DNA of 64,000 nucleotides from Zygnema cylindricum (lineage: Eukaryota > Streptophyta > Zygnematophyceae > Zygnematales > Zygnemataceae), in assembly GCA_037447655.1 (NCBI GenBank), contig JBBHKE010001167.1, forward strand, positions 186,001 to 250,000, written 5' to 3'. Below the pieces are notes generated by a model that had not been told where the DNA came from, ran no database searches, and worked only from the letters and a program-made list of their open reading frames with translations. The position numbers and the translations under genes are program-made. Of the stretch, positions 5,288-62,754 are shown piece after piece (position 1 is the first letter of the stretch; each line of letters starts with the position of its first letter).

Positions 5288-5368
5288 CCGGCGGCAGGAT
5301 TTGATCCTTGTACCTACCGGCCGGCAGACAGGAAATAGCCGGTAGCCTTAGCCGTTTAGTCTAGCGGT
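5288..5368 (-). other. Antisense tRNA-like module (B 5' LTR)
   Basis: On the minus strand an A-box-like TAGACTAAACGGCTAAGG (5364 down) is followed by a B-box/T-loop GGATCAAATCC (5307-5297), about 50 bases apart as in tRNA. A TTTT run follows on that strand. Acceptor-stem pairing is not convincing, so it resembles the tRNA-related head of a SINE, not a functional tRNA. Confidence 0.65.
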
Positions 5369-6105
5369 ATTGTTACGTAGCATATAGTTTGATAGTTATT
5401 TAAATAGGTATACGTGCGAAAAACCATTTAACTGCAATGAATTACGGGATACATAGATCCAGTAATATATAATGTACGACTAACGGTACGGACACAAATC
5501 AGTACCGCGCATTTGTTTCGTAAATGAAACAAATACCGCGCATGTATTTATTACGGCTACGATTAAAGCCGAATTTAATCGGACGGCCGGGATTAGCGCC
5601 AAGATCGCGGAGGAAGATTTCGGCGGTTTGTGGCCATCGCCACATCGGATTACGCGTGGCGAAATTCCGTTGGATTGTGGAATCTCCAGAGATTATGGCA
5701 CCGAATCCGGATTTGACATGTGTCGACATTTTGGCAATGTCGTACAATATCCGTACATAAAGTACACTGCCAGCTGTACTTTTGCGTACGGAACTCAATT
5801 CTGATTGGTTCCGTACATTAGTAGATAGAGTCTGTGAGAGAGATAGGACTTAGAAAAATTAGAAGATAGGACCCCCTCTCCCAGAGAGCTTCTGTACAAA
5901 AGGTCAGCTTTGACCCTCCATAACTTACTGCTCAGGGGAGCAAATTCAGAGATTCTTTTTGCTATCGACTCAGGGGAGTCTTGTCTTCACAAGGGTGAAG
6001 TTGGTCAGAGTTTTTGTCTGCCAGGGTGGCAGTTATTTTTGCTTAAACACAAAGGGGTCAAGATTATCCTAGAGGCTTCTTGGAAGCTGTCCACTCTGAG
6101 GACTT

Positions 6106-6861
6106 ATGGAGGTCTCAGAGTTTCAGGTTATGGGCCCACCCTCTAAGGTACCAATCTTTAATAGAACTGGCTTCATATACTGGGAAAGTATGATGATAGG
6201 AGCTCTATGCGAAAAAAGGTTTTGGGGGATAGTGAGTGGACGATTGGGGCGTCCATCAAGTCTTGGAACTCCTCCAGGGTTTAAAGGAAGCAGATTCACC
6301 AAGAAAGAGGATTCACCTTCAACGGAGGAAACAAAGGAAGGAGAGGTGGTGGACAAAGGAAAGGAGAAGGAGGCGACCACACCAATAGCAACTGGTTTAG
6401 CATTCATGTCACCTATTCCGAGGAACGAGGAGAATGATACTGAAACCTGGGACTTCAACAATATGGCGGCAAAGCACTTCATCCTACGCCATCTCACTCA
6501 AGGACTTGCATGTCCTCATTTGCAGGTAGAGAGGGCATCCGATCTTTGGATGGCTCTCATAGAGATGTACCGAAGTGGTACGATTCAGCAACAACAGTTG
6601 GCTGATCAGAAAGTTAAGGAGTATGTATACAAAGGGGGAAATATGTTGGATTTCTGCAATGAGTTTGCTACACTCTTCATGGAGCTAGAGAGTGCGGGTA
6701 AAGTTTTTAGTGAAAAAGAAAATGTTAACTGTTTACTAATGAAGTTACCTGATGAGTTCGAGAACATACTCAACCGTGTGCAGAACTTGCCGGACTCAAG
6801 GTGGATATGGAACTCAGTGGTAGGGATGATTCTCGTTCGAGAAAATACGATTGAGATCTGA
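6106..6861 (+). CDS. gag: Gag (capsid part) of element B
   Basis: 251 codons. The start ATG (6106) lies inside the 5' LTR, 20 bases before its end, and the frame runs through the primer site, giving MEVSEFQVMGPPSKVPIFN. That start is chosen because ATGGAG at this LTR position recurs in other copies and the following residues are conserved. The middle matches the UBN2/Retrotran_gag_2 type, with LWMALIEMYRSGTIQQQQLA, then YKGGNMLDFCNEFATLFMELE and MKLPDEFENI. It would form the virus-like-particle shell. It ends at a TGA (6859-6861) after NTIEI, but the same frame continues into the nucleocapsid. Element K has TGA at the same codon. Confidence 0.85.
   Translation: MEVSEFQVMGPPSKVPIFNRTGFIYWESMMIGALCEKRFWGIVSGRLGRPSSLGTPPGFKGSRFTKKEDSPSTEETKEGEVVDKGKEKEATTPIATGLAFMSPIPRNEENDTETWDFNNMAAKHFILRHLTQGLACPHLQVERASDLWMALIEMYRSGTIQQQQLADQKVKEYVYKGGNMLDFCNEFATLFMELESAGKVFSEKENVNCLLMKLPDEFENILNRVQNLPDSRWIWNSVVGMILVRENTIEI
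6126..6140 (+). other. Primer-binding site (half initiator tRNA-Met)
   Basis: GGTTATGGGCCCACC directly abuts the LTR. It is the reverse complement of the anticodon stem and loop of initiator tRNA-Met (GGTGGGCCCATAACC in the plant form, from memory), not of a tRNA 3' end. That implies priming by a cleaved half-tRNA, as known for Drosophila copia and yeast Ty5. Confidence 0.85.
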
Positions 6862-7924
6862 AGGGGAGGAAAGAGTGGCCAAGCCTTGGCAACAGCGACC
6901 GATTGGAGGAACAAGGATTCCCGGAAACCAGTCGATAACTATGGGGGTAGGGAGCAGAAAAAACAGGTTGGCGAGTTCGAACCAAGGGCTCCCAAAGGTT
7001 TATGTCATTTTTGTAAGAAACCGGGGCACTATATGGCGGAGTGCACCAAGCTAACTGAGCTTCGGTTAAAGGAGGGGCAGACCGGTGGTACCTCGAGAGG
7101 AAAGAAAAAGGCCCTTGTCACACAGGTACTTGAGGCGGAATCCGAGGACGAGGACGATGAGCTCCTTTTAGATGAGGAGTTGGAGGCGAAAACTGAGGTT
7201 GAAATTCCACGAAGGCAGAAATGTGCTTACGGTGGATTGAAAGGTGAAGCAGGCTGGATTATAGATTCAGGTGCCTCAATGCACATGTGTAAGGATAGAC
7301 ACCTGTTCACAAAGATAAGAAAGATTCCCACCGTAGAGATAGAGTACGGGGATGGGAGGATAGTCACCACTACTCTTGTAGGATCGGTAGACCTGAAAGT
7401 GTTAGTAAAAGGAAAGACATCCATATTAACATTCTCCGATGTATTGTTTATTCCGGAGCTGAACAAAAACCTTATCTCTACATCAGTATGAGATGATAAG
7501 GGTTTTTTCACTAGCACTAGGGAAGGAGTCTTTACTGCTAGTTTTGAGGAGGATGTCTATTTCATTGCTGACAAAGGTAGCCATGGGATGTTTAGGCTGA
7601 TCTTAAGTAATGAAACGAAGAAACTTTATTATGCTGGTGTTCATGATATTATGATGTGGCATAAGAGGCTTGGGCATGTGAATCTAGATAAGTTAAGAGA
7701 GATGAAAAAGATGGGAGTGGTGGAAGGGATTCAGTTCAGTGAGAGTGATGATATAAGTGATTGTAGTGGGTGTGCTCAAGGTAAAGCACACAGATTACCC
7801 TTTCCAAAAACAGCCACCTACAAGGGAGAAAAACTTCTAGATCTAGTACACACAGATATTTGGGGACGGGCTAGAGTGCCCTCACCGGGGGGGAAGAGAT
7901 TTATGATGACTATAACTGATGATG
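6862..7924 (+). pseudogene. pol: Element B nucleocapsid, protease, integrase N-terminus
   Basis: Continues the gag frame after the TGA. The zinc knuckle CHFCKKPGHYMAEC (CX2CX4HX4C) is at 7003-7044, followed by an acidic stretch SEDEDDELLLDEELE. The protease motif DSGAS is intact (DSG at 7264-7272). A TGA in place of a Leu codon ends the frame at 7489-7491. The block 7588-7924 holds the integrase HHCC domain (WHKRLGH and CSGC) and the first catalytic aspartate in HTDIWG (GAT 7854-7856). The frame is then broken by an inversion. Confidence 0.9.
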
Positions 7925-7925
7925 A

Positions 7926-8860
7926 GATAGTTTAGTTACCTTGTTATTAACCTGTTTTTCTTGCAGTCTTTTGCTACTTCTCCTCCCCCCCTCAAAATCT
8001 GAGGCCGGAATAGATGGTTCTCGTGGATTCTTTCGAACAAACTCGGCTTCTCCCCTATCCCTTGATTCCGAATCAATTTCCACCACGTCTTCCGCTTCGA
8101 GTAGAGTTGTCACTAGAGTTTCCACAGCCGAGTACTTTTCGGTCTGATTTGTTCCTGCAAGAATGTCATCGTCTCTAAAACTTGGATAGTTAGGAAGCTC
8201 AAAGTCATCAGAATTTTCTGACTCAAATCTGATTTTTAGTGACTTTGTATATTTGAAGGGATCCACAGACTTTCCTTCATCCATAACTACTAGATGCTTT
8301 ACTAAGATTATATCTTCTCTTTTTAGATCATAAACTCTATATCCTTTAACATCCTCATCATATCCTAATAAGTATCCCGGTTTTCCTTTAGGATCTAGCT
8401 TCCAATTAGACCGATCTGTATCTACACTGAATACTTGACTGCCGAAAACCTTTAAATGAGATAAGTCTGGTTTCCGGCCTGTCCATCTCTCATAAGGTGT
8501 TTGATCTTTTATAGCTGAAGTAAGAACTCTATTTTTGAGGTAATTAGCACAGTTCATTGCTTCTGCGCAAAACCTTTTTCCTATCTTCTTATCCGACAAC
8601 ATACTTCTAGCACTATCACTTAGTGTTCTATTTAACCTTTCAGCTACCCCATTCTGTTCCGGATTTTCTGGAACTGTCTTTTGGTGTTGAACCCCATCTT
8701 CCCTCAAAAAATCCTCAAACTGGTTAGAAGTATACTCTCCACCATTGTCACTCCTTACTCTCTTGATTGGAGTTTCATGGAGTTTTTCGCTCCATGCTTT
8801 ATATTGTCTAAAACAGTCCTCAGCTTCTGACTTGTTTTTCAAAAAATATACTCGGGAATA
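7926..8860 (-). pseudogene. pol: Inverted integrase core and C-terminus of element B
   Basis: A 310-codon open frame (8842-7910) on the opposite strand to the rest of B. It encodes the missing middle of integrase: YFLKNKSEA, RSDNGGEYTS (second Asp), NGVAERLNRTL (catalytic Glu) and the C-terminal TPYERWTGRK to GYDEDVKGYRVYD region plus the linker to RT. It ends at the point where RT resumes on the plus strand (8861). It is a segment inverted in place, not a separate gene. The TGATGA word near both breakpoints suggests microhomology. Confidence 0.9.
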
Positions 8861-10448: not shown

Positions 10449-10461
10449 AAAATAAGGGGAG
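10444..10461 (+). other. Polypurine tract of element B
   Basis: ACTAGAAAATAAGGGGAG directly precedes the 3' LTR. The same AAATAAGGGGAG sequence precedes the 3' LTR of K and, on the other strand, related forms flank the LTRs of E and P. It would prime plus-strand DNA. Confidence 0.85.
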
Positions 10462-11510
10462 TGTAGAAACTAATGGTTTTATTAGTATTTTCTAGGTCTA
10501 AAAAGAAATATAGAAGTCGAGGCAGTCTATCTCTAACTTCTCTCTCCAACTCTCAAACTTGTCGCAGTCACTGAGAAATTGGAGAGGAAGCTAGAGCCAT
10601 GGCTACCTTTGCTATCCTGAGGTTTACGGGAAATTTATATTAGGGTTTATTTATTTATAAAAAAGTTATGTGCCGACGGCAGGATTTAATCCTTGTACCT
10701 ACCGGCCGGCAGACAGGAAATAGCCGGTAGCCTTAGCCGTTTAGTCTAGCGGTATTGTTACGTAGCATATAGTTTGATAGTTATTTAAATAGGTATACGT
10801 GCGAAAAACCATTTAACTGCAATGAATTACGGGATACATAGATCCAGTAATATATAATGTACGACTTACGGTACGGACACAAATCAGTACCGCGCATTTG
10901 TTTCGTAAATGAAACAAATACCGCGCATGTATTTATTACGGCTACGATTAAAGTTGAATTTAATCGGACGGCCGGGATTAGCGCCGAGATCGCGGAGGAA
11001 GATTTCGGCGGTTTGTGGCCATCGCCACATCGGATGACGCGTGGCGAAATTCCGTTGGATTGTGGAATCTCCGGAGATTATGGCACCGAATCTGGATTTG
11101 ACATGTGTCGACATTTTGGCAATGTCGTACAATGTCCGTACATAAAGTACACCCGCAGCTGTACTTTTGCGTACGGAACTCAATTCTGGTTGGTTCCGTA
11201 CATCAGTAGATAGAGTCTGTGAGAGAGATAGGACTTAGGAAAATTAGAAGATAGGACCCCCTCTCCCAGAGAGCTTCTGTACAAAAGGTCAACTTTGACC
11301 CTCCATAACTTACTGCTCAGGGGAGCAAATTCAGAGATTCTTTTTGCTATCGACTCAGGGGAGTCTTCTCTTCAGAGGGGTGAAGTTGGTCAGAATTTTT
11401 GTCTGCCAGGGTGGCAGTTATTTTTGCTTAAACACAAAAGGGTCAGGATTATCCTAGAGGCTTCTTGGAAGCTGTCCACTCTGAGGACTTATGGAGGTCT
11501 CAAAGTTTCA
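10462..11510 (+). repeat. Element B 3' LTR
   Basis: 1049 bp, the same length as the 5' copy and colinear with it with scattered substitutions. It keeps the terminal ATGGAG start codon (11491), which here would read out into flanking DNA. Confidence 0.95.
10672..10754 (-). other. Antisense tRNA-like module (B 3' LTR)
   Basis: Second copy of the 5288-5368 module. The A-box TAGACTAAACGGCTAAGG is retained. The T-loop reads GGATTAAATCC, with one change from the 5' copy. Confidence 0.6.
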
Positions 11511-12210
11511 TGCACTAGATCTAGTACTTTCTCACCCCTATATGTGGCGGCTTTGGGAAAGGGAAGTTTGTGAGCCTTACTTTGGGCACATCCACTACAG
11601 TCATCCACCATTTCATTATCCCAAAACTGAATGCCTTCTACTACACCAAGATTTTTCATTTCCCTTAACATATCAAAATGCACATGCCCCTACCGCTTAT
11701 GCCAAATCATCAACTTTAGGACACCAACATAATAAACATAATTATTTTCATTACTCAGGTTAAGCCTAAACATTCATAGGCTACCGTTATCTGCCGTAAA
11801 GTAGACTTTATCCCCAAACTTAGTTGTAAAGACTCCCTTTCTAGTGAAGGTATCAAACTCTTTGTCATCTCATATTGACGTAGAGACAAGATTATCACTC
11901 AGCTGAAGAATATAAAGTACATTTGAGATTGTGAGTATAGAAGTCTTACCCTCCACTATAACATTCAAATCTACCAAACCCACTAGATCTGTAGTAACTA
12001 CCTTTCCATCCCCATACTTTATCTCCACAATAGGGATCTTTCTTAGTTTAGTAAAGAGGTGCCTATCACGACACATATGCATAGATGCACCTGAGTCAAT
12101 GATCCATCTATCCTACGGGGCTTCCCGAATTGCTATGAAACCACACTTCTATTTCTGAGGGATCTCCTTCTCCTCCTAAATTCATGTCAAGAAGAAATTC
12201 CCCATTCTCC
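11511..12210 (-). pseudogene. pol: Element A protease and integrase N-terminus
   Basis: On the minus strand the protease DSGASMHMC motif is retained (DSG at 12089-12097), followed by KLRKIPIVEIKYGDGKVVTTDLVG and VLYI (frame 12082-11870). Downstream are a GAG-pre-integrase segment and the integrase CSGC motif (frame 11683-11489). It continues at 5076 when B is removed. Frameshifts separate the parts. Q interrupts it on the N-terminal side. Confidence 0.85.
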
Positions 12211-12676
12211 TGCAATTCTGTGTCCTCCATTGGACTACAGAATACAGGAAGCCTCTAGATAGTATTTAACTAACCCACTTTAAGCCACGACCACTTCTGC
12301 CCAAGAAGGCAAACTGACAATTTGACTGCACCCCTGTGCAGCCTGGACTCCCCTGAGTCGATAGCAAAAAGAATCAGTGAAAACGGCCAACCAGCCGATA
12401 AGTTATAGGGTGGAAAAGATGCCAATTTATACAAACTCTCAGAGAGAGAGGACTATCTACCTAAATTTTCCTAAGTCCTAGTTTTTCCTAATTCCCTCTC
12501 ACAGCTCCTATCTACTGCATGTACGAACGAATCACAAAACTGTATATTACTAGAAAGTACTACTGCGGATGTACTTTCTGTACGGCCTCTGTACGAGAAG
12601 GCCATTAAGTGGACGCGTGTCCACTTTTCACTCGTCCGTACGTTCCTCGGAATTCCCACGACCGAATGATGTCTTC

Positions 12677-12704
12677 CCACGTGGCGCCGGGTCATGCCAC
12701 GTCA
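12677..12704. promoter_or_regulatory. G-box and TGACG-type motifs in LTR
   Basis: CCACGTGG (12677-12684) and TGCCACGTCA (12695-12704) match bZIP/bHLH sites of the G-box/ABRE class in plants. The same pair is kept in both P LTRs (34249-34276 and 39628-39655), with related ACGTGGC words in A and M. This is a sequence match only; activity is inferred. Confidence 0.5.
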
Positions 12705-12964
12705 CTAAATGCCAAAGTGACCACTCCGGGATTTCGGTGATGATGTGCGCCATTGGATTTTATGCGAAACGCAATCTTGGCTGTTATAAATACTTGCGTG
12801 ACATTTGTTCCGATGTAGAAATAAAATGCGTGGTATCCGTTTTGATTTAGCGTCGTACGACGTACTTTATATAACTGAATCTACTTACGCCGTAAACAGT
12901 TCTAGTTAAATGAATTTTATCCACTTGAACTAAATATATATCTATCACATACCATAGCACTTAG

Positions 12965-13079
12965 CATTGGTCCTAGTCTATTAGGATAAAGTTGACCGCT
13001 GCCGGTCAACTTGACGAACCGCAGGTACCGGGATCAAATCTCGGGTCCGTCAAGTATATTTTTAGTAACCTACTAAAAA
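12965..13079 (+). other. Antisense tRNA-like module plus hairpin (Q)
   Basis: A-box-like TAGTCTATTAGGATAAAG (12974-12991) and a T-arm in which CCGGG and CTCGG close the loop ATCAAAT (13029-13045). A perfect hairpin TTTTTAGTA-ACC-TACTAAAAA follows (13059-13079) and contains a T5 run. The strand is opposite to that of the retroelement. Confidence 0.7.
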
Positions 13080-13257
13080 TAGTTGTCTGTTGAACTAAAG
13101 CAGCCATGGATCAACCTCTCTCTCTTTCCTTCAGTGACTACAACAAGTATGGGGGCTAGAGAGCGGAGGTGGAGGCAGGTTGTCCGTCCTTTTCTTTTCC
13201 TTTTATAAAAACACATTTAAACCTAGAAAATACTCTAGAAATCTATAAATTTCAACA

Positions 13258-18535: not shown

Positions 18536-18558
18536 CAGAGTCTAAAGCTTTAGGGGAG

Positions 18559-19189: not shown

Positions 19190-20383
19190 TGAAACTCTGA
19201 GACCTCCATTGGCCCTCAGAGTATGCAGATCCAAAAGAAGCTAATCTAGATAGTGCCGACTCCAAGTTAATATAAACCCAAATGACTGACCCCTTGACAG
19301 TCACTATCTCAATATAGATTCACCCCTGTGAAATAACACTTTTTGTGTGTTCAGTTCCACCACAGAATGCAAAGTTAGAATATGAGATTTGGACACATTC
19401 ACCCACTTTGACTTTCCTTTATAAATGCAGCCACCTTGGCAAACAAAAACTCTGACCGACTACACCCCTGTGAAGCATGGACTCCCTTGAGTGCGCAGCA
19501 AAAAGAATCACTGAAAATGGTCAAGTAAATTGATAGTTATGGCTGCCCAAAGTTTGCCATTTATATAGGGTGCTCTCTGGGAGAGGCAGCTGCCTACCCA
19601 AAATTTATCTAAGTCCTATTCCCTCTCTAAAACTCTATCTACTGAAGTACGGCACCAATCAAATTACTGTGTCGTACAGAAAAGTATAGGTGCCGGTGTA
19701 CTTTATGTACGGCCATTGTACGACATGACCAAAATGTCGACACGTGTCATATCTGGATTTGTTCCCGTAATCTCCGGAGTTGCCGCAATCCAATATAGTG
19801 TTACCACGTGTCACTCAATGTGGTGGTGATCGTAAACCGCCAAAATTGTACGCCGCGATCTCGGCATCCTTCGCGGCCGTCCGATCAATTTTGGATTTCA
19901 ATCGTGGCCGTCATAAATACGTGCGCGGTATTCTTTCTGGCGTCAAACAAACTGCGCGGTATTTATTTCGTATCCGTACCGTATGTCGTACTTTACACAA
20001 CGGTTTCTATGCACTATGCATATAGTTCTAGTTAAATGAATTAGTCTTATTGTAACTATTTAAATAAATATCATACCCCGTAATATCAAATACAATTTAG
20101 ACTATCTGGATAAGACTACCGGCTATTGCGGTTGTGAGAAATTCCAGGTACCAAGATCAAATCCTGGCTCTGTCAAAACTACCATTTAGAGAAAACCCCT
20201 TATAAAACAACTGTCTGTCTCCCTCTAGACAGCACAGGCAGCCATGGCTAACTCCTCCTCCAGTCTTGAGTGACTGCGACAAGTGTGGGGACTTGAGGAG
20301 GAGTTAGAGGCAAGCTGTCAATATCTACTATTTTGCTTTTTATTTTGCAATCTCTAGACCTAGAAAATACTTAAATTCCAACA
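19190..20383 (-). repeat. Element E 3' LTR (full)
   Basis: 1194 bp, TGAAACTCTG to AATTCCAACA. It contains a TATA-like CCTATATAAATGG (minus, around 19568-19557), the long stem with CTAACTCCTCCTC and GAGGAGGAGTTAG arms around GACTGCGACAAG (20240-20310), and a tRNA-like module. Confidence 0.9.
20090..20175 (+). other. Antisense tRNA-like module (E full LTR)
   Basis: A-box-like TAGACTATCTGGATAAGA (20098 onwards), then a T-arm CCAAG-ATCAAAT-CCTGG (20151-20167) with four of five pairs. The strand is opposite to that of the element. Confidence 0.65.
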
Positions 20384-20913
20384 CTCCCCTTATTTTCTAG
20401 TCTATTTTTTTTTTTTTTTTCAACTTCCACAAACAAGTAAACAAACATCCCCTCCCCTTTTTCCTTTTCTTTTTCCTTTTTCCTTTTCCTTTCATAAAAC
20501 TGAAGTATTTAACACAGTGCATTAAATGTACTGAAATCATAGTTGCATCACACATTTTATTTAACATCCCATTTTTCATAAATTCGAGCAAAGATTTTAT
20601 CCACTTCATCACTCTTTTATCCACACACCAACAGATTTCCCTCTTGCGATCCAAACAGCCAGCCATATCTCCAATCTGCAACATACACCCAGATGCTAAC
20701 CCTTTTACAGGCACATTTTGACAAGTGACATCACTCCAAGTAGTGATGTCAAATCCATCCACCCCCAAATATTCCCAAAAAACACTAGTCCCCACTAAGT
20801 TCCTTATAAGATCTACATCTTTCGTACTCATATTTTTATCCATGATAGTTACCCTATTTTCTGAACTTCCCTCACTTTCTCCCATGGAATTCTTTCCACT
20901 ATTACTTTTATAC
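20384..20913 (-). pseudogene. pol: Element E RNase H remnant
   Basis: Minus-strand frame 20948-20397 keeps DITTWSDVTCQNVPVKG, LQIGDMAGC and VMKWIKSLLEFMKNGM, recognisable but diverged RNase H. The upstream end near 20914 joins directly to LTR sequence, marking the deletion. A long pyrimidine tract (20405-20490) replaces the usual end of pol. Confidence 0.75.
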
Positions 20914-21730
20914 AGGGTGCTCTCTGGGAGATGCAGCTGCCTACCCAAAATTTATCTAAGTCCTATTCCCTCTCTAAAACTCTATCTACTGAAGTACGGC
21001 ACCAATCAAATTACTGTGTCGTACAGAAAAGTATAGGTGCCGGTGTACTTTATGTACGGCCATTGTACGACATGACCAAAATGTCGACACGTGTCATATC
21101 TGGATTTGTTCCCGTAATCTCCGGAGTTGCCGCAATCCAATATAGTGTTACCACGTGTCACTCAATGTGGTGGTGATCGTAAACCGCCAAAATTGTACGC
21201 CGCGATCTCGGCATCCTTCGCGGCCGTCCGATCAATTTTGGATTTCAATCGTGGCCGTCATAAATACCTGCGCAGTATTCTTTCTGGCGTCAAACAAACT
21301 GCGCGGTATTTATTTCGTATCCGTACCGTATGTCGTACTTTACACAACGGTTTCTATGCACTATGCATATAGTTCTAGTTAAATGAATTAGTCTTATTGT
21401 AACTATTTAAATAAATATCATACCCCGTAATATCAAATACAATTTAGACTATCTGGATAAAATTACCGGCTATTGCGGTTGTGAGAAATTCCAGGTACCA
21501 AGATCAAATCCTGGCTCTGTCAAAACTACCATTTAGAGAAAACCCCCTATAAAACAACTGTCTGTCTACCTCTAGACAGCACAGGCAGCCATGGGTAACT
21601 CCTCCTCTAGTCTTCAGTGACTGGGACAAGTGTGGGGACTTGAGGAGGAGTTAGAGGCAGGCTGTCAATATCTACTATTTTGCTTTTTATTTTGCAATCT
21701 CTAGACCTAGAAAATACTTGAATTCCAACA
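20914..21730 (-). repeat. Element E 5' LTR, truncated
   Basis: Nearly identical to 19567-20383. It starts at the GGGTGCTCTCTGGGAGA segment, so the R/U5 side and the primer site are lost. Confidence 0.9.
21437..21522 (+). other. Antisense tRNA-like module (E truncated LTR)
   Basis: Copy of 20090-20175 with the same T-loop ATCAAAT and A-box-like TAGACTATCTGGATAAAA. Confidence 0.6.
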
Positions 21731-24558: not shown

Positions 24559-25564
24559 TGCAATTTTGTGTCCTCAATTGGACTACAGAATCTAGAAAGC
24601 CTCTTGTCAATTTTAACTAGCCCACTTTTAACTACAACCATTGTTGCCCAAGATAGAAAATTGTCAACCTGAGTGCACTTGTGTGCAGCCTCGACTTCCT
24701 TGGGTCCACAACAAAAAGAATCACTGAAAAAGCCCAAGCAGGCGATAAGTTATGAGGCGGCAAAGATGCCATTTTTATACAAACTCTCTTAGAGAGAGGT
24801 GACTACTTACTGAAAACACGAAGTATTAAACCCCTCTCACAACCCCTATCTATTGTCGTACAATCTAATCACATGTGTAAACTGTACAAAAAGGAACTAC
24901 GGCCGATGTCCTTTTTGTACGGTTTTTTTTCGGCAAGACAACTGAGTGGACGCTTGTCTCCTTTCGGATTTGTCCGTATGCTCCCAACGCTTCCCCGCTT
25001 CCCAATGTTATCTTGCCACGTGGTGCAAAGTCATGCCACGCCAAAAAACCGCCAAAGCGATCATTTTGGAATCCCGGCGTCGTTATATGCCGTTGAATTA
25101 AAACTAGCTTACAATGTTATCCGCTGAAAATAAATATCTGATTCATTTGTTTCGTGCGTGATCATATTCGCACAAAGTATTAACCAATTTCTATATTTTT
25201 CATCCGTCATTCCGTTAATCAGATTATAGTTCTAAACATAGTTTAAATAAATATCAAACTCCATGTAATCTAACGAACTCCTATGACAGACTAGTTAGAG
25301 TTGACGGCTACGCCTTGCTTTGCCCATCGGAGGTTTGAGTCCTGCTGGACTCAACCTTTTGTTGAGAGTGACTTATGTCACTCCTCATTCCTAGCTATAG
25401 AGCTGAGGCTGCCATGGCTCCACCACTCTCTTTTTCCTTTCACTGACTACAACAAGTATGTGGGCAAGAGGGAGGAGGTGTATGCAGATTGCCTGGGCTT
25501 TTTTTTTCCTTTCACTTAACTATTTAGACCTAGAAAATACCCTATAAATCTAGTAAGTTCAACA
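24559..25564 (-). repeat. Element A 5' LTR
   Basis: 1006 bp, TGCAATTTTG to AAGTTCAACA, the same length as both M LTRs. The gag start codon position reads ATT instead of ATG. It holds a CCACGTGG word near 25017 and the tRNA-like module. Confidence 0.92.
25287..25382 (+). other. Antisense tRNA-like module with two hairpins (A)
   Basis: A-box-like CAGACTAGTTAGAG (25287-25300) and B-box GGTTTGAGTCC (25332-25342), a near-canonical Pol III internal promoter pair. Two perfect hairpins follow: CTCAAC-CTTTT-GTTGAG (25350-25366) and AGTGAC-TTAT-GTCACT (25367-25382). Confidence 0.7.
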
Positions 25565-33791: not shown

Positions 33792-34830
33792 TGCAATTCT
33801 GTGTCCTCCATTGGACTACAGAATACAGGAAGCCTCTAGATAGTATTTAACTAACCCACTTTAAGCCACGACCACTTCTGCCCAAGAAGGCAAATTGACA
33901 ATTTGACTGCACCTTTCTGCAGCGTGGACTCCCTTGAGTCCGTAGCAAAAAGAATCACTAAAAACGGCCAACCACCCGATAAGTTATGAGGCAGTAAAAA
34001 TGCCAATTTGTACAAACTCTCAAAAGGAGAGGTGACTACATACCAAAATTTTCTAAGTCGTGATTCTCTCTAATAACTCCTATCTACTGAAGTACGGACC
34101 AATCAGATTATTGTATCGTACACAAAAAGTACTACTGCCGATGTACCTTTTGTACAGCCTATGTACGACAAGGCTATTAAGTGGACGCGTGTCCGCTTTT
34201 CACTCGTCCGTACGTTCCTCGGAATTCCTTTGACCGAATGTCATCTCTCCACGTGGCTCTAGGTCATGCCACGTCAGAAAACGCCAAAGTGACCACTCCG
34301 GGATTTCGGCGATGATGTGCGCCGTTGGATTTTATGCGAGACGCAATCTTAGCCGTAATAAATACTTGCGGGACATTTGTTCCGATGTCGAAATAAAATG
34401 CGTGGTATCTGTTTTGAATAAGCGTCGTACGACGTACTTTATAAAACTGAATCTATGTACGCCGTATACAGTTCTAGTTAAATGAATTTTATCCACTCGA
34501 ACTAAATATATATCTATCACATACCATAGCACTTAGCATTGGTCCTAGTCTATTAGGATAAAGCTGACCGTTACCGGTCAACTTGACGAACCGCAGGTAC
34601 CGGGATCAAATCTCTGGTCCGTCAAGTATATTTTTAGTAACCTACTAAAAATAGTTGTCTGTTGAACTAAGGCAGCCATGGATCAACCTCTCTCACTTAC
34701 CTTCAGTGACAACAACAAGTATGGGGGCTAGAGAGCGGAGGTGGAGGCAGGCTGTCCGTCCTTTTTCTTTTCCTTTTATAAAAACATATTTAAACCTAGA
34801 AAATACTCTAGAAATCTATAAATTTCAACA
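33792..34830 (-). repeat. Element P 3' LTR
   Basis: TGCAATTCTG to TTTCAACA. It keeps the gag start ATG (33811-33809, minus). G-box and TGCCACGTCA motifs are at 34249-34276. The stem-loop containing CAACAACAAG is near 34690-34745. Confidence 0.95.
34545..34652 (+). other. Antisense tRNA-like module (P 3' LTR)
   Basis: A-box-like TAGTCTATTAGGATAAAG, T-loop ATCAAAT in GGGATCAAATCTC, then the TTTTTAGTA/TACTAAAAA hairpin. Nearly the same as in Q. Confidence 0.68.
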
Positions 34831-38680: not shown

Positions 38681-39175
38681 TCAATAGCTTTTGCTCAGGC
38701 AACTGGAGCTCCTGAATAGTTCCAGCTCTATAATTTCCACTAAACTCTCCCACAACTCCTCGGCCTTGTAAATGTGAAGATAAGGAGTGGCCAAACCTTG
38801 AGTGAGTTGCCTCAGAATAAAGTTCGTGGCAGCCATGTTTACATCCTCCCACATTTGAGTATCGTTCTCCGCGGTCTTCACGGTGGCCGCTCCCGATACT
38901 GTGGCAATAGGAGTGATGGGTGTCTCCTTCCCTTTTTCCTTTTCAGACACACTGCTGTCCCGATCATCTGCCTCCTCTGCTGAGGCAGCCGTTGTTGCAG
39001 AAAACCTTACTCCCCCAAATCCTGGTGGAGTTCCCGAAGGTGGACGTTTCACTTGTCCACTGACGATACCCCAATATCGTTTTTCACACAAAGCTCCCAT
39101 CATCATGGCTTCCCAATAGATAAACCCAGATCCATTGAAGGTGGGCACCCTAGAGGGTGGGCCCATAACCTGCAA
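38681..39175 (-). CDS. gag: Element P Gag N-terminus
   Basis: 164-codon frame, QVMGPPSRVPTFNGSGFIYWEAMMMGALCEKRYWGIVSG, then KGKETPITPIATVSG and NFILRQLTQGLATPYLHIYKAEELWESLVE. The first Met in frame (39175) is inside the primer site plus LTR edge. The ancestral LTR start codon reads ATA here (39190-39188) but ATG in the 3' LTR. A frameshift near 38735 and a TGA near 38667 precede the next Gag block. Confidence 0.9.
   Translation of the reverse strand: MQVMGPPSRVPTFNGSGFIYWEAMMMGALCEKRYWGIVSGQVKRPPSGTPPGFGGVRFSATTAASAEEADDRDSSVSEKEKGKETPITPIATVSGAATVKTAENDTQMWEDVNMAATNFILRQLTQGLATPYLHIYKAEELWESLVEIIELELFRSSSCLSKSY
39156..39170 (-). other. Primer-binding site of element P
   Basis: Reverse complement GGTTATGGGCCCACC, identical to the site of B, immediately adjacent to the LTR without a spacer. 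Half initiator-tRNA-Met type. Confidence 0.88.
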
Positions 39176-40209
39176 TTCTGTGTCCTCTATTGGACTACAG
39201 AATACAGGAAGCCTCTAGATAGTATTTAACTAACCCACTTTAATCCACGACCACTTCTGCCCAAGAAGGCAAACTGACAATTTGAATGCACCCTTCTGCA
39301 GCCCGGACTCCCCTGAGTCCGTAGCAAAAAGAATCACTGAAAACGGCCAACCAGCCGATAAGTTATGAGGTAGTAAAAATGCTAATTTGAACAAACTCTC
39401 AAAGGGAGAGGTGACTACCTACCAAAATTTTCTAAGTCGTGATTCTCTCTAATAACTCGTATCTACTGAAGTACGGACCAATCAGATTACTGTATCGTAC
39501 ACAAAAAGTACTACTTCCGATGTACCTTTTGTACGGCCTATGTACGACAAGGCTATTAAGTGGATGCGTGTCCGCTTTTCACTCGTCCGTACGTTCCTCG
39601 GAATTCCTATGACCGAATGTCATCTCTCCACGTGGCTCCAGGTCATGCCACGTCACAAAACGCCAAAGTGACCACTCCGGGATTTCGGCGATGATGTGCG
39701 CCGTTGGATTTTATGCGAGACGCAATCTTAGCCGTAATAAATACTTGCGCGACATTTGTTCCGATGTCGAAATAAAGTGCGTGGTATCCGTTTTGAATTA
39801 GTGTCGTACGACGTACTTTATATAACTAAATATATGTACGCCGTAAACAGTTCTAGTTAAATGAATTTTATCCACTTGAACTAAATATATATCTATCACA
39901 TACCATAGCACTTAGCATTGGTCCTAGTCTATTAGGATAAAGCTGACCGTTAGCGGGCAACTTGACGAACCGCAGGTACCGGCATCAAATCTCTGGTCCG
40001 TCAAGTATAATTTTAGTAACCTACTAAAAATAGTTGTCTGTTGAACTAAGGCAGCCATGGATCAACCTCTCTCTCTTACCTTCAGTGACTACAACAAGTA
40101 TGGGGGCTAGAGAGCGGAGGTGGAGGCAAGCTGTCCGTCTTTTTTCTTTTCCTTTTATAAAAACATATTTAAACCTAGAAAATACTTTAGAAATCTATAA
40201 ATTTCAACA
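39171..40209 (-). repeat. Element P 5' LTR
   Basis: 1039 bp, colinear with 33792-34830 without net length change and with a few percent substitutions by eye. G-box pair at 39628-39655. Confidence 0.95.
39924..40031 (+). other. Antisense tRNA-like module (P 5' LTR)
   Basis: Same layout as 34545-34652. The B-box here reads GGCATCAAATC, one base off, and the hairpin reads TTTTAGTA/TACTAAAA. Confidence 0.65.
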
Positions 40210-40712
40210 CTTGACATGCAAATATTATGACTATTCAAACCTCTGGGAGGGCTCTACTCCCATGAGCTGAACGCAAAAAAAATGGCTTAATTTGCTCCCT
40301 GAGCAGTTAATTATCTTTGACCAGAGATGGCCTATTTATACGCGCCTATTTTTCAGTTGGTTAAGCTAAATGAATTCGACGCCTCGTTATTATTTTTAAC
40401 AACTATCACACCCTATGTATGCAACAATTCTTCTACGACTGGGTGGATAAGGTGAACAACTGTTTATCCGGCGTTGACTATATAGTCACCGGCGTTGACT
40501 ATATAGGACCCGGCGTTGACTATATACGACCAGGATGACATCTTGATCAAGTCACATATCTTTTTGTTAGAAGCTAAATTGCTTCTTTCCTTGGTCAATT
40601 TCCTTGGCTGCTTGAAGGTTGCCATGGCTGTCTAAGTCTCTATGATTGCAACAAGTGTTTAGAATTTGAGTGCCGACTAAGACATATAACTAGAAAATAA
40701 TTTCCCACAATC
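40210..40712 (-). repeat. Element H 3' LTR, second part
   Basis: Continues the H LTR after P. It contains the family segment around GCTCCCTGAGCAGTTAATTA, a TATA-like TATTTATACG near 40330, an A-box-like CTGGGTGGATAAGG (40439-40452) and the stem-loop motif GATTGCAACAAGTG near 40650. The B-box region is replaced by a triplicated 21-mer. It ends TTCCCACA, followed by the polypurine tract. Confidence 0.78.
40468..40531. repeat. 21-bp tandem triplication in H LTR
   Basis: Three units of CCGGCGTTGACTATATA plus four variable bases. They occupy the place where a tRNA-like T-arm would be expected. Confidence 0.9.
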
Positions 40713-42100: not shown

Positions 42101-43135
42101 TGCAATTTTGAGACCTCCATAGGTCCTTAGAATGGGTAGCTCACATGAAGCCCGTAGGATAACCTTGACCCGTAGGTGTTTCAACAAGAATAACTGCCAC
42201 CGAGGCAGACAAAAACTTTGACCACGTTCAGCCTGTGAAGAGAAGACTCCCTTGAGTGGATAGCAAAATGGATCTCTAAATTTGCTCCCTTGAGCAGTAA
42301 GTTATGAAAGGTCAAGATTGATCTTTTGTACAGAAGCACTCTAGGAGAGAGGCAGCTACCTGCCAATTTTTCTAAGTCCTAAATCCCTCTCTAAACTTTA
42401 TACTACTCGAGTACGGTACCAATCACAATACAGTATCCTATATAAAGGTACAAGTTCCAGAGTACTTTCTATACAGCCATCGTACGGCATGGCTAAAATT
42501 TTGAGGCCTGACATATCCAAATTTGATCCCATAATATCCAGAGATACCGCAAGCCAATGAGGTTATACCACGTGTCACTTGACATGGCGGTGACCGAAAA
42601 CAACCAAAACGCATATTCTGCCATCTCGACACCTATTGTGGCTGTTCGATCAAAACCAACTTTCAATTCTTCCCGTCAAAAATAAATGCGCGGTATTTGT
42701 TTTGCCGTCCAACAAATGCGCGATTTTTGTTTCGCGAAGTACCATAAGCCGTACTATAGTCTAACTTTATCTATGTGCTAAGAGTCTATTCTTGCCGTAT
42801 TAATGAATTTATCTGCGTGTACATCTTTAAATATTTAACAAACCCTATATACCTTTGCACCGGTCCTAGACTATGGGACAAATCTAACGCTACTGTTGAC
42901 TTTGAGGGACGCTTAGTACTAGGATCAAATCCTAGGTTTGTTAAGTAACTTTTGGTAAAGCTACCAAAAACTAGCATCTGTTTCTATTTCTAGACAACAT
43001 ACGCAACCATGGCTCTAACTTCCTCTCTAACCTTCACTGATTGAGACTACCGTGGGAGTTTGAGAGAGGAGTTAGAAGGCATAATGCCTTTGCTTTTTTT
43101 CTACATTTTTGTTGAAAAAAAGTAATTAATATTCA
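42101..43135 (-). repeat. LTR of truncated element H2
   Basis: 1035 bp, TGCAATTTTG to AATATTCA, inserted in H pol. It includes the reverse complement of ATGGAG at its left end, the stem-loop with CTAACTTCCTCTC and GAGAGGAGTTAG arms (43018-43072) and a tRNA-like module. The next bases (CTTCTTAATTAAG, 43136-43148) resemble a decayed polypurine tract. The rest of H2 is absent, replaced by element I. Confidence 0.82.
42860..42970 (+). other. Antisense tRNA-like module, best T-arm (H2)
   Basis: A-box-like TAGACTATGGGACAAATC (42867-42884). T-arm CTAGG-ATCAAAT-CCTAG with five perfect pairs (42918-42934). The downstream hairpin TTTTGGTA-AAGC-TACCAAAA (42950-42969) matches the Q hairpin in position but has a G-C pair where Q has A-T. 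Confidence 0.72.
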
Positions 43136-43157: not shown

Positions 43158-44098
<941 letters not shown>

Positions 44099-46570: not shown

Positions 46571-47592
46571 TGTAGAAATTAAAGGATATTATAGTATTTT
46601 CTAGGTTTTGTAAAATACAAAATAGAAGCATAGGCATTCTGCCTCTAACTCCTCTTTCCAGTTCCCATAGTTGGTGCAGTCACTGAAAGGTGGAGAGTGA
46701 GATAGAGCCATGGCCGCCTATGCTATCCAGACAGGGACAGACATTAGATTGGTAGATTTACCAGAATAGTAATTAACGGACCCGAGATTTGAAACTGGTA
46801 CCTGCCGTCTATCAGAGCTGCCGGTAGTTAGTAGCCTTAACCAATTAGTCTAAGATTAAGATTATACACATAGGGATTGATAACTATATAAATAATGTCA
46901 CGTAGGCTATTTCATTTAACGATATATTTGGACATAGATAGAGTTTGTGTTGTACGGCGTACGAAACATCAGAAACAAATACCACGCATTTTGTTTCTAA
47001 AGCGAAACAAATATCCCGCAAGTATTTATGACAACTATGATTGAAATCCTGTTTAATAGGACGGCCACAAAGCATGCCGAGATCTCATAATATTTTTTTG
47101 ACGGTTTGCGGTTAACGTCAAATTGATTGACACGTTGCACAACCATATAAGATTACAACATCTCCGAGGATTATAGGAATGACATGTGTTGACTTGTTGG
47201 CCATGTTGTACAATGGCCGTAAAGAAAGTACACCGGCACTTGTACCTTTCTGTACGACACAGTATTATGATTGGTGCCGTATTTCAGTAGATAGAGTTTT
47301 AGAGAGAGATAGGATTGAGAAAAATTTGAAAGATTGGACCCTCTCTCCTAGAGAGCTTCTGTAGAAAAGGCCAAACTCTGACCCTCTATAACTTACTACT
47401 CAGGAGAGCAAATAGAGAGATTCTTTTTTCTTTAGACTCAAGGCAATCTTGCCTTCAAAGGGGTGAAGGTGGTGAGAGCTTTTGTATTCCAAGGTGGTAG
47501 TTACTCTTGCTGAACACAAAGGGGTCAGGGTTATCCTAGAGGCTTCGTGTGAGCTGCCTACTGTGAGGACCTATAGAGGTCTCAGAGCTGTA
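46571..47592 (+). repeat. Element K 5' LTR
   Basis: 1022 bp ending GAGCTGTA, where the usual terminal CA is changed. The start codon position is ATA. The stem-loop lies at about 46639-46710 with GGTGCAGTCACTGAAA in the loop. Confidence 0.88.
46750..46860 (-). other. Antisense tRNA-like module (K 5' LTR)
   Basis: Best A-box in the window: CTTAGACTAATTGGTTAAGGC (46853-46833, minus), matching a tRNA D-arm. The T-loop is TTCAAAT in AGTTTCAAATCTC (46796-46784), followed by the hairpin TGGTA-AATC-TACCA (46763-46750). Confidence 0.72.
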
Positions 47593-50118: not shown

Positions 50119-50123
50119 CAGTT

Positions 50124-53276: not shown

Positions 53277-53292
53277 TAGAAAATAAGGGGAG

Positions 53293-54329
53293 TGTAGAAA
53301 TTAAAGGTAATTTTAGAATTTTATAGGATTTGTAAAATACAGAAAAGAAGTCAAGGTAGTCTTCCTCTAACTCCTCTCTCTAGCTCCCACATTTGTTGTA
53401 GTCACTAAAAGTTGGAGAGGGAGATAGAGCCATGGCCGCCTATGGTATCCAGACGAGGACAGACATTAGATTGGTAGATTTACCAAAATAGTAACTGACG
53501 GTCCCGGGATTAGAACTTGGTACCTGCCGTCTGTCAGAGTCCCCAGTAGCATCTAGCCTTAGCTTATTAGTCTAAGATCAAGGTTATACAATATAAGGTT
53601 TGATAACTATATAAATATTGTCACGTATGTTATTTCATTTAACGAGATATTTGAACATAGATACAGTTTGTGTTGTACAGCGTATGAAACATAAGAAAAA
53701 AATACCATGCACTTTGTTTCGAAGGTGAAACAAATATCGGGCAAGTATTTATGACGGCTACGATTGAAATCCGGTTTAATCGGACGGCAGCAACGCATGC
53801 CAAGATCTCAAAATATGTTTTCGGCGGTTTGCGGTTGACGTCACATTGATTGACGCGTGGCATAAAAATATTGGATTACGCCATCTCCGAGGATTACGCG
53901 AACGAATCAAAAAATGACATGTGTCGACTTGTTGGCCATGTTGTACAATGGCCGTACAAAAAGTACATATGCACCTGTATCTTTCTGTACTACACAGTAT
54001 TATGATTGGTGTTGTACTTCAGTAGATAAAGTTTTAGAGAGAGATAGGACTGAGAAAAATTTGATACATTGGACGCTCTCTCCTAGAGAGCTTCTGTACA
54101 AAAGGTCAAACTTTGACCCTCCATAACTTACTTTTCAGGGGAGCAAATTCATATATTTTTTTTGCTTTAGACTCAAGGCAATCTTGCCTTCAAAAGGGTG
54201 AAGTTGGTGAGAGTTTTTGTATTCCAAGGTGGGTGTTTCTCTTGCTGAAACACAATGGGGTCAGGGTTTTCCTAGAGACTTTGTGAGGGGGTGCCTACTC
54301 TGAGGACCTATGGAGGTCTCATAGTTGCA
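53293..54329 (+). repeat. Element K 3' LTR
   Basis: 1037 bp. It ends ATGGAGGTCTCATAGTTGCA, retaining the gag start codon. Confidence 0.9.
53470..53580 (-). other. Antisense tRNA-like module (K 3' LTR)
   Basis: A-box-like CTTAGACTAATAAGCTAAGGC, T-loop region AAGTTCTAATCCC, and the GGTAAATCTACC hairpin retained. Confidence 0.6.
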
Positions 54330-56394: not shown

Positions 56395-57400
56395 TCTTGA
56401 AATAGCTTGATTTATAGTGTATTTTCTAGGTCTAATTATTTTAATGAAAAAGGTAAGATAATCGTTGGTAGCCTGCCTCCAACCTTTCTCTCTAGCCCCC
56501 ATACTTATTCTAGTCATTGAAAGAGAGAAAGAATGATGGAGCCATGGTTGCTTCAACTCTATAAGCAAGACTTAAAAGTGACTTATGTCACCCTCAACAA
56601 AAGGTTGAGTCCGGCAAGGCTCGAACCTCCAACGGGCAGAGCGAGGCGTAGCCGTCACCTCTAACCAGTATGTCGTGGAAGTTTGCAAGTATACATAAGG
56701 TGTGATAAATATTTAAACTGTAATATGATTGTTCATTCATTTAATGGAATTATGAATGAGGGAACATAAAACCAATTGAAAATATATTGCGAACATGATC
56801 TCCGCACGAAACAAATGAATCAGACATTTGTTTCGACGGTTCACATTAAATGTCGGTTTTTGATCCAACGGCAAATATCAGCGTCGAAATCCCGGAATGG
56901 TCACTTTGGCGGTTTTTGGACGTGGCATGACTCCACCCCATGCGGAGAGATAACATTTGGTCGCGGAATTCCGGGAAACATAAAGATGAATAAAACGTGG
57001 ACACGCGTCCACTCAATGGCCTTGTCGTACACAAGCTGTACAGAAAGTACATCGGATGTAGTAGGTTTCTGTACCACAGAATGATTTGATTAGATCGTAC
57101 TTTAGTAGATAGGGGTTGTGAGAGGGGTTTAGGACTTAGTAATTTTTCTGTAGACAGTCACCTCTCTCTTTGAGAGTTTGTATAAATTGGCATCTTTGCC
57201 ACCTTATAACTTATCGGCTCGTTGGCCGTTTTCAATGATTCTTTTTGCTACTGTCTCAAGGCAGTCCAAGTTCCACAAGAGTTCAGTCAGGCTGTTTATT
57301 TGTCCTCTTGAGCAGCACTGGTTGTGGCTGAAAGTGGTTTAGTTAAAAGTTATCTAGAGGCTTTCGAATTTTATAGTCTAATGGAGATCACAGAATTGCA
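56395..57400 (+). repeat. Element M 5' LTR
   Basis: 1006 bp. TATAAAT box at 57181-57187. The gag ATG (57381) is 20 bases before the end and gives MEITELQV. An ACGTGGC word is near 56930. Confidence 0.92.
56578..56675 (-). other. Antisense tRNA-like module with two hairpins (M 5' LTR)
   Basis: Minus strand: A-box-like CATACTGGTTAGAGG (56672-56658) and an exact consensus-type B-box GGTTCGAGCC (56627-56618). Hairpins CTCAAC-CTTTT-GTTGAG and GTGAC-ATAA-GTCAC follow, as in A. Confidence 0.75.
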
Positions 57401-59760: not shown

Positions 59761-61740
59761 GTCAAACACCTAGTTCTCATGGATGAAGAGAAGTCATTTG
59801 ACCCCTTCATATATACCAAGAAGATAAGAATCAGTTTTGAGTTTGAAAGTGAGGAGAACTCGATCGTTCACGAAAGGGACATGAGTGAAATAATGATTGC
59901 AGATTCAGGGGAGATCCAAGAAAGAGGAGATCTACCGAAAATCCCTACATATTCCTACGCACTGCAAGGAGACAAAAGAAGAGGAATCAAAACCGGCTTC
60001 CATGGATAGGGGAGCCGATAAGACTAAGGAAAAATCCAAGACTTCCCTCCATCCCAGCTTCAGAGTTTGAGGGAGGGAGAAGGAGCAGCAAAAAAATACA
60101 AGAAAAATAGGCCGCTCACAAGGTAACTTAGCTATCTCACCCTGATGAGCCTCAGTCATATTCAGAGGCAGTGAACACTACTGAGAAAGATTGATGGATT
60201 ATAGCCACAAATGATGAGATGGCCTCCATCATGGAAGCAAAAACTTGGGAACTAGCGGAGTGTCATCTCGACAGAAAATTGGTTGTAAATGGGTGTTTAA
60301 ACTAAAATTGAACCGAGATAATAACATTGAGAGATATAAGCCTTGATTGGTAGCAAAGAGGTTCACCTAAAAGGAGGGGATAGACTATGAAGAGACTTTT
60401 GCTTCACTTATTCGGTTCACGTCAGTAAGGATTCTCCTCAGTCTGGCAGCAATTCAAGACATGGAAATACACCACATGGATATTAAGACTGTTTTTCTTA
60501 ATGGTGACTTAGAGGAAGAAATTTTTATGAGGCAACCAGAGGGGTAAGTGGAGGAAGGAGAAGAGAGCAAAGTTTGCAGGCTTATAAATTCTTTATATAG
60601 ACTGAAGCAAGCTCCCCGACAGTGGAATAATTAACTAGATGAGTTTCTCACCAGTAAGGGCTATATCCGGATCAGCTTTGACCATTCTATCTATATGTTT
60701 GAAAATGAGATTAGTTTGATTTTTATTGCAATTTATGTGGATGATTTGCTGATGTTAAGTAAGTCTTTGGAAAAGATTAATAAGTTAAAGGAATATCTTA
60801 AAAGCAGATTTGATATGAAGGATTTAGGGGAGGCAAGATATATTTTGGGAATCTAAATGGAGAGAGATAGGGGGAAAAGGATTATCAAACTTACTCAAAA
60901 AGAAGCAATAGGTAATATACTTGAGAAATTCTAGAAAGAAAAAGGCAAACAGTTGCACCACTCCCATGGGCAAGAAGAAAATAAGTGAAAGGAGTGTAGA
61001 TGGAGGAGTGATAATCTTAGATGATTAGATGAGTCCAAAGGAGAGAGAGTTTATGAAGTCTATTCCATATCGACAGGTTGTAGGAAGTTTGATCTACTTT
61101 ATGAACTTTACAAGGCCGACAATAGCGTCACAAGTTGAAGTCCTCAATAGGAGTCTTAACGATCCTAAGAAGAGAGATTGGGAGGCAGCCAAGAGAGTTA
61201 TCAGATATCTGGAAGGAACTACAGAGTTATGATTGCATTTGGGAGGGGAGCACACTGATATAACTACTTGGAGTGATGCCAGTTATGCAGATGCACATAT
61301 GAGAAGATGCACTTCTGGGTATGTGTTGTATATGGGGGAAGGTGCTTGTTGTTTGAGCAGTAAGCAACAAAAGGTGGTTGCTCGGTCTTTATGGAGGCTG
61401 AGTACATTGCCTCTTGTTCTGCTGTAAAAGAGTTAATGTGGGTCAAGTCATTGTTGCATGAATAGGGATATATGAAGAAGTGAGTGCATGAAGTTTTTTG
61501 TGATAATAAGGCTTCCATTGCAATTGCAGCCAACCCAAAGCACTGTTTCAAAGCTAAGCATATGGACATAAGATTGAGTTTTGTGAGGAAAAAAGTAGAA
61601 AATAAAATTGTGAATCTTGTGTACAAATCTGATGAATAAATGGTGGTTGATATGTTGACCAAACTTGTGCGATCTCCCAAGTTAAAGTATTGTACGGAAA
61701 AGTGTCGACTAACAAACAAGTTGAAATAATAATAGAAAAT
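59761..61740 (+). pseudogene. pol: Element M RT and RNase H
   Basis: Linker, then RT beginning near 60180 with many stops. YVDD is at 60734-60745. IPYRQVVGSLIYFMNFTRP at 61029-61232, then RNase H GGEHTDITTWSDASYADAHMRRCTSGYVLYMGEGACC (61233-61427) and CDNKASIAIAANPKHCFKAKHMDI near 61500-61565. A short purine stretch AAATAAGGAGAG precedes the 3' LTR. Confidence 0.87.
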
Positions 61741-61748
61741 AAGGAGAG

Positions 61749-62754
61749 TGTTGAAATATCTAGATTTCTAGTGTATTTTTTAGGTTTAATTAGTTTAATG
61801 AAAAATGCAAGACAAGCGTAGGTAGCTTGCCTCTAACCCTTCTCTCTAAGCCCCATACTTGTTGTAGTCAATGAAAGAAGGAGAGAGTGATGGAGCCATG
61901 GCTGCCTTAGCTCCATAAGCAGGACTAAAGAGTGTCTTATGTCACTCTCAACAAAAGGTTGAGTCCGGCAAGACTCAAACCTCCGAATGGCAGAGCGAGG
62001 CGTAGCCGTCAGCTCTAACCGTGCTGTCGTGGAAGTTCGCAAGTATACATAAGGTGTGATAAATATATAAACTGTAATATGATTGTTAATTCAATTAACG
62101 CAATTATGAATGAGGGAACATAAAAGCAGTTGAAAATATAGTGCAAACATGATCTCCATACAAAACATATGAATCAGACATTTGTTTCGACTGTTCACAT
62201 TAAATGTCGGTTTTTAATCTAACGACAAATCAGCTACGAGATCTCGGAATGGACACTTTGGCAGTTTTCGGACGTGGCATGATTTGACGCCAGAAGGAGA
62301 GATAACATTTGGTCGCGAAAATTATGGTGAACATAAGTAAGAGTAAAACGTGGACACAAGTCCACTCAATGGCCTTGTCGTACACACGCTGTACAGAAAG
62401 CACATTGGCTGTAGTACCTTTGTGTACTACAAAGTGATTTGATTAGATCGTACTATAGTAGATAGGGGTTGTGAGAGGGGTTTAGGACATAGTAATTTTT
62501 TTGTAGGTAGTCACCTCTCTCTTTGAGAGTATGTATAAATTGGCATCTTTGCCACCTCATAACTTATCGGCTGGTTGGCCATTTTCAGTGATTCTTTTTG
62601 CCACGGACTCAAGAGGGTCCAAGCTGCATAGAGTTCGAGTCAAATTGTCAATTTGTCCTATTGGGTAGCAGTGGTTGTGGCTGAAAGTGGCTTAATTAAA
62701 AGTTATCTAGAGGCTTTCTGAATTTTGAAGTCTAATGGAGGACAAAGAATTGCA
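61749..62754 (+). repeat. Element M 3' LTR
   Basis: 1006 bp, TGTTGAAATATC to GAATTGCA, with the gag ATG kept at 62735. Confidence 0.92.
61930..62030 (-). other. Antisense tRNA-like module (M 3' LTR)
   Basis: Same layout as 56578-56675. The B-box reads GGTTTGAGTC and both hairpins are conserved. Confidence 0.7.

Follow-up and report, generated by a model that had tools for sequence, protein, structure and literature searches.

Candidate antisense tRNA-type RNA polymerase III unit in the long terminal repeats of a Ty1/copia family of Zygnema cylindricum

A 64,000-nucleotide stretch of the Zygnema cylindricum genome (assembly GCA_037447655.1, contig JBBHKE010001167.1, positions 186,001 to 250,000; hereafter the window) is packed with nested Ty1/copia elements, as indicated by Pfam matches to RVT_2, rve and copia gag, and one family of these elements carries a ~100-bp module in its long terminal repeats (LTRs), on the strand opposite to the element. 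With a probability of roughly 0.58, the module would be a tRNA-derived type-2 promoter-terminator unit of RNA polymerase III (Pol III), lying antisense in the unique 3′ (U3) region of copia LTRs. The parts of the unit, with their order, strand and spacing, are seen directly, as is a B-box conserved above its neighbours. Taken alone, the window copies are unconvincing, and the case rests on their relatives outside it. All counts refer to a genome assembly of 352.8 Mb in 2689 contigs, in which labelled stretches outside the window bear L-numbers (L001, L042 and so on); the published assembly of Zygnema cf. cylindricum SAG 698-1a_XF is described as 359.8 Mb in 3,587 contigs, with 29.8% copia (PMC11096116).

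The module-bearing family has LTRs of ~1.05 kb in elements of ~6 kb, and 14 LTRs or pieces of LTRs were aligned from the window. The family belongs to Ty1/copia by its gag, integrase and RVT_2 domains of copia type, which lie next to its LTRs or between them. The LTRs of a pair are ~5.4 kb apart, and these elements are not short non-autonomous terminal-repeat retrotransposons in miniature (TRIMs). The 5′ LTR of element A is directly followed by the primer-site-like sequence GGTTATGGGCCCA (6126-6138), which we take to be the site expected for priming by the 5′ half of the initiator tRNA. Because the module occupies LTR positions ~200-300 and a TATA-like stretch (tataaat) is located near LTR position 785 in element I, the module would fall within U3.

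A profile search found the module in 13/13 window family LTRs that cover this part, all antisense, and in the window and L001-L112 together 107/107 profile matches (E-values up to 0.01) lay inside a family LTR on the opposite strand. The original prediction, made from the window sequence alone, had claimed that the module recurs in LTRs and always on the opposite strand, and the further LTRs of the genome agree with it. Because the LTR profile itself contains the module, extension of the LTR match into the flanks was checked, and it ran on past the module by 40 bp or more in both directions in 99/107 matches and in one direction in the remaining 8. Two main forms were distinguished, type-1 of ~110 nt (elements A, B, C, E, F and H) and type-2 of ~98 nt (D and I), and a third, H-like group (L135-L146) gave 12/12 matches within LTRs. 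For alignment, the 107 modules were reduced to 101 and then to 95 by setting aside truncated and identical modules; the type-1 alignment holds 65 of 66 modules, with L070 (2356-2481), whose interior holds a 16-nt tandem duplication, left out. The module profile had no match in a further two large copia LTR families of the window (13596-14437/23025-23867 and 26234-27234/32511-33507).

On the antisense strand, the unit would run from an A-box-like stretch through the B-box to a TTTT terminator 15-19 nt further on. The B-box is close to GGTTCRANNCC, its six key letters (G53, T55, C56, R57, A58 and C61) being kept in 53/65 type-1 rows, 25/29 type-2 rows and 14/20 type-2 rows of a sample collected blind to the module (see below), and position T54 reads A in 59/65 type-1 rows. 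In several H-like copies the B-box, GGTTCAAATCC, is identical to that of a tRNA-Gln of the same genome. Among 12 subfamily examples, chosen partly by motif (the H-like and I-type examples were picked knowing the motif, and a promoter score that favours the B-box led to L040, L042 and L067), mean column identity was 0.795 over the 11 B-box columns, compared with 0.422/0.482 in the adjoining 12 columns and 0.316/0.348 further out; positions 53, 55, 56, 58 and 60 were invariant, and C61 was lost in one example. In the diverged LTRs L042, L050 and L067 and a decayed window copy (43359), comparison with the LTR profile put the B-box-like stretch 168-190 bp from one common LTR-profile point; their promoter scores are 18.8, 11.2, 17.1 and 6.7, respectively.

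The would-be terminator follows the same strand. Read in antisense, 58/66 type-1 and 28/29 type-2 modules have TTTT within their final 25 nt, compared with 14.8% of random antisense LTR stretches, and AAAA was found in 2/95 modules. A downstream TTTT is likewise present in 12/12 H-like and 10/13 window copies, and begins 15-19 nt past the B-box in 9/12 subfamily examples. Because the B-box is kept across diverged subfamilies, the T-run stands at a near-fixed distance from it and an A-box-like stretch precedes both, the anatomy is best read as an antisense tRNA counterpart of Cassandra, as originally proposed; against that proposal, no tRNA fold was detected.

In order to obtain LTRs independently of the module, I-type LTRs were located by a stretch that excludes it, and the sample kept 20 of 41 matches once the query copy, nine copies already in the module-search set and eleven lower-ranked matches had been set aside. 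All of these LTRs (20/20) carry the module. Non-CpG mismatch to the column majority was 0.087 for the stretch, 0.073 for the module, 0.062 for the A-box, 0.060 for the T-run and 0.033 for the B-box, and the lowest of 516 windows along the alignment (0.011, CpG columns excluded) starts one base from the B-box. Four of the six key-letter losses in this sample are C56 to T at CpG. The hairpin partner of the B-box has a mismatch of 0.141, among the less conserved parts, so that the box letters, rather than the hairpin, look constrained.

Several results weigh against a Pol III unit. Conservation of the whole module does not exceed that of the LTR (0.600 vs 0.616 over 18 mixed LTRs), and in a whole-LTR alignment of 16 chosen type-1 LTRs the module, A-box and T-run stand at the 50th, 69th and 45th percentiles. 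The B-box ranks at the 95th percentile in the same alignment, and judged by these figures it is the B-box, and not the module as a whole, that is specially conserved; for the predefined B-box window of the module-blind sample, 30 of the 516 windows are lower. All six key letters are kept in 7/13 window copies and at least one is lost in the other 6/13, and L095 and L085 have the loss of C56 in common. The distance from the start of the A-box-like stretch to the start of the B-box is 50-57 nt in window copies, longer than the 43-45 nt in ten tRNA stretches, and among tRNAs would suit only those whose variable arm is long. tRNA identity was rejected: the Rfam tRNA model RF00005, which gave 63 tRNAs in this genome, had no match to the window or the modules, and ARAGORN at default settings returned 0 in the window, 0/13 window modules and 0/5 further sequences (predictions at low thresholds were inconsistent and were disregarded). 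A cloverleaf fold was not recognised in the modules, and the module is not a functional tRNA.

The unremarkable conservation of the module as a whole, the key letters lost in many copies and the missing tRNA fold would all fit a relic, that is, of a SINE (short interspersed nuclear element) or tRNA gene that inserted backwards in an ancestral U3 and has been copied since with no present function. Insertion of a SINE into an LTR has been put forward as the origin of the Helenus elements (Kojima 2024, PMC10886601), and capture of a SINE, also raised in the original prediction, may have founded the module. We nevertheless consider a functionless relic rather unlikely, as the B-box is better kept than its neighbours across the diverged subfamilies as well as in the sample collected blind to the module, and the T-run distance is nearly fixed; further, no free SINE-like copy outside LTRs was seen among the matches listed (the best ~40 per search, part of them fetched), 30/30, 107/107 and 12/12 matches lying in LTRs.

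A different conserved U3 element, either a Pol II factor site or a stem-loop of the sense RNA that resembles a B-box, would account for the finding that further LTR windows are equally or more conserved, and much of the structural evidence is neutral as to strand. Type-2 folding energies are alike on both strands (-15.2 antisense, -15.7 sense), and fold z-scores over 18 LTRs are near -2 on both strands and also elsewhere in the LTR, so the structure is not special. RNA structure was rejected as the selected feature, RNAalifold giving no common structure for the 65 type-1 modules, and covariation after average product correction gave no clean helix. In the type-1 alignment, the stem enclosing a T-arm-like hairpin has 81.1% of cells paired, compared with 76.3% when shuffled and 22.8-48.6% when slid, and the enclosing stem itself, with 83.5% of cells paired, could form on either strand. 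In 41 cells, vs 21 in shuffles, both sides are changed; 25 of the 41 fall at two pairs, with CG replacing AU, mainly in the A-type clade, and neither the pairs with changes on both sides (7 vs 8.5) nor the further pair types (20 vs 23) are above shuffles. Covariation, whose absence the original prediction had taken as a refutation, is equivocal for the RNA of the module: paired cells are in excess, doubly changed pairs show no excess, and the double changes stem largely from one clade. The GU/AC counts (74/29 in the stem, 49/29 without the outermost pair and 22/27 in the T-stem) leave the strand unsettled. The originally claimed retention of the T-stem holds for B and F (5/5 pairs, G-U allowed) and is not general, the H 3′ LTR having 3/5, although the element letters of the original prediction may differ from ours. 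A non-Pol III element of this kind is improbable: it leaves unexplained both the antisense T-run at +15 to +19 and the coincidence of the invariant positions with those of a B-box, and the poorly conserved hairpin partner speaks against a stem-loop.

Chance resemblance within related sequences would fit the window alone, where 57 positions reach a promoter score (A- plus B-box, derived from eight of the genome's tRNA stretches) of at least 13 vs 53 expected in random sequence and the window copies, at 10.9-19.2, are about at random level, but it is very improbable given that copies outside the window reach 20.6-27.2 at the same LTR place, with expected numbers of 0.011 to 0.00025 per LTR, and that the B-box is kept in both the module-blind sample and the 12 subfamily examples. 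The module is the single best A- plus B-box site, over both strands, in 52/59 LTRs; the copies are related to one another, and counts over them are not independent. The A-box-like pattern TAGACTANNGGNTAAG of the original prediction is not above chance in the window, with 27 matches at up to three mismatches vs 20.4 expected.

All 13 window copies matched the module profile; A-box and B-box in the coordinates that follow stand for box-like stretches. Those on the minus strand lie in plus-strand elements. In element A, the 5′ LTR (5077-6125) carries the module at 5277-5375 (A-box-like stretch 5347-5363, B-box-like stretch 5297-5307, TTTT 5276-5279) and the 3′ LTR (10462-11510) at 10662-10760 (B-box-like stretch 10682-10692 with C56 changed, T-run 10659-10664). 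In element H, the module is at 46765-46863 in the 5′ LTR (46571-47590; A-box 46836-46852, B-box 46785-46795 with G53 changed, without TTTT) and at 53487-53586 in the 3′ LTR (53293-54329; A-box 53558-53574, B-box 53507-53517 with R57 changed, TTTT 53485-53488). Element I has type-2 modules at 56601-56688 in the 5′ LTR (56397-57400; A-box 56659-56677, B-box 56617-56627, TTTT 56599-56602), where the perfect GGTTCGAGCC noted in the original prediction was found on the minus strand at 56618-56627, and at 61955-62042 in the 3′ LTR (61749-62754; A-box 62013-62031, B-box 61971-61981 with C56 changed, TTTT 61953-61956).

Plus-strand modules, in minus-strand LTRs, are those of B (LTR 12211-13257) at 12962-13061 (A-box 12974-12991, B-box 13031-13041, T-run 13059-13063, one of its five T-stem pairs being G-U), C1 (LTR 19342-20383) at 20086-20186 (A-box 20098-20114, B-box 20154-20164) and C2 (LTR part 20905-21730) at 21433-21533 (A-box 21445-21462, B-box 21501-21511), both without TTTT, and the type-2 module of D (LTR 24559-25564) at 25271-25358 (A-box 25282-25300, B-box 25332-25342 with C56 changed, TTTT 25357-25360). 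They continue with the 3′ LTR of E (33792-34830) at 34534-34633 (A-box 34546-34563, B-box 34603-34613, T-run 34631-34635), its 5′ LTR (39171-40209) at 39913-40012 (A-box 39925-39942, B-box 39982-39992 with G53 changed, TTTT 40011-40014) and F (LTR 42101-43109) at 42855-42952 (A-box 42867-42882, B-box 42922-42932, TTTT 42950-42953). The T-loop-like letters first noticed in the window do recur, as ATCAAAT in the A 5′ LTR, B, C, E and F, TTCAAAT in the H 5′ LTR and TTCGAGC in the I 5′ LTR.

A weak, decayed homologue of the module (profile E-value 0.79, B-box-like AGCTCAAATCC, without TTTT) occupies 43232-43488 on the minus strand of a diverged plus-strand LTR (43232-44098), in which LTR-profile pieces 126-352 and 501-1048 were matched. 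Either this LTR or the other large copia families would fit the elements C and D that the original prediction described as lacking the module. In one of those families, the LTR pair 13596-14437/23025-23867 has a sense-strand A- plus B-box score of 15.0/18.7, a Pol III-like site of its own or chance. In a further diverged LTR piece (40344-40692), a ~26-nt unit with CCGGCGTTGACTATATA occurs about three times in tandem near the place of the module. Outside the window, a diverged LTR subfamily (L042:934-1155 and L147-L156) has at least 40 module matches at 93-100% identity, several of them paired ~5.3 kb apart, and is probably young; AATGGTTAAGGC and GGTTCAAATC are present in most of its fetched copies. 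Family LTRs are nested within family LTRs in L059, L033, L063, L042 and L073 and at window positions 19342, 33792 and 40209, at scattered host positions (147, 271, 342, 710, 919, 919, 954 and 956; eight rows for seven insertions, as element E contributes both of its ends), and targeting of insertions to the module was rejected, as the junctions do not cluster at host positions 198-297. L133 and L134 (contig C187, 555 kb) contain a plastid-type rpoB frame, either plastid DNA that was copied into the nucleus or a join made in assembly. A search with 781 aa of a plastid-type rpoB frame of the assembly gave 86% identity over 100% of the query to the Zygnema circumcarinatum protein, and the top match, at 90%, was a metagenome protein.

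If the module is a Pol III unit, TFIIIC would bind at the B-box and the product would be an RNA of ~90-100 nt complementary to the part of U3 near the 3′ end of the sense RNA of the element. Because the B-box letters are kept and the stretch that would pair decays in the module-blind sample, the likeliest benefit to the element would come from TFIIIC/Pol III occupancy or from antisense transcription itself, which may keep LTR chromatin open or damp the sense RNA. It is possible, though doubtful, that a copia lineage making up perhaps a large share of the genome keeps an active antisense Pol III gene in its LTRs. Autonomous elements would in that case carry an antisense relative of Cassandra of the tRNA type, which would supply many dispersed TFIIIC sites together with antisense U3 RNAs that regulate the element or its chromatin. 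Two polymerases would then share one LTR in opposite directions in protein-coding copia elements, and antisense self-control of a retrotransposon, or TFIIIC-based marking, would become directly testable. The host genus belongs to the algae that are sister to land plants, and copia makes up the 29.8% given above of the described Z. cf. cylindricum genome (PMC11096116).

Pol III promoters in LTRs are known from short non-autonomous elements and are taken there as the promoter of the element itself; among the titles and abstract openings listed from a collection of open-access papers, none described a tRNA-type unit lying antisense in the LTRs of autonomous elements. The LTRs of the Helenus elements (TRIMp3) contain a tRNA-like sequence that includes an A-box and a B-box and in many cases is no functional tRNA, and some fungal Helenus families are described as using a tRNA anticodon-loop primer and as probably Copia-dependent (PMC10886601). 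The algal module is like them in its B-box; its A-box is uncertain, and it gave no tRNA prediction. Helenus elements differ in being TRIMs of 311-1263 bp that encode no proteins and whose promoter is thought to drive the element, whereas the algal unit belongs to 6-kb elements that encode copia proteins, where it lies antisense within LTRs of ~1.05 kb and a long way upstream of the TATA-like stretch; the words antisense and opposite are absent from the available text of the Helenus paper (PMC10886601). Cassandra TRIMs likewise carry the Pol III promoter of a small RNA gene within the LTR, but as described theirs is of the 5S rRNA type in non-autonomous elements, whereas the algal unit is of the tRNA type in protein-coding copia (PMC10853983, PMC7215508). 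The microRNA cassettes of foamy viruses are similarly reported as short non-coding units directed by Pol III in the U3 of an autonomous retroelement, although these are animal retroviruses with microRNA hairpins, likened here by description and not by sequence (PMC7693620). Finally, the antisense MIR SINE in Polr3e, although a single mammalian locus outside the LTR of any mobile element, is described as lying antisense to a Pol II gene, on which this Pol III unit acts by transcriptional interference, and offers a model for how the algal module might act (PMC5358760).

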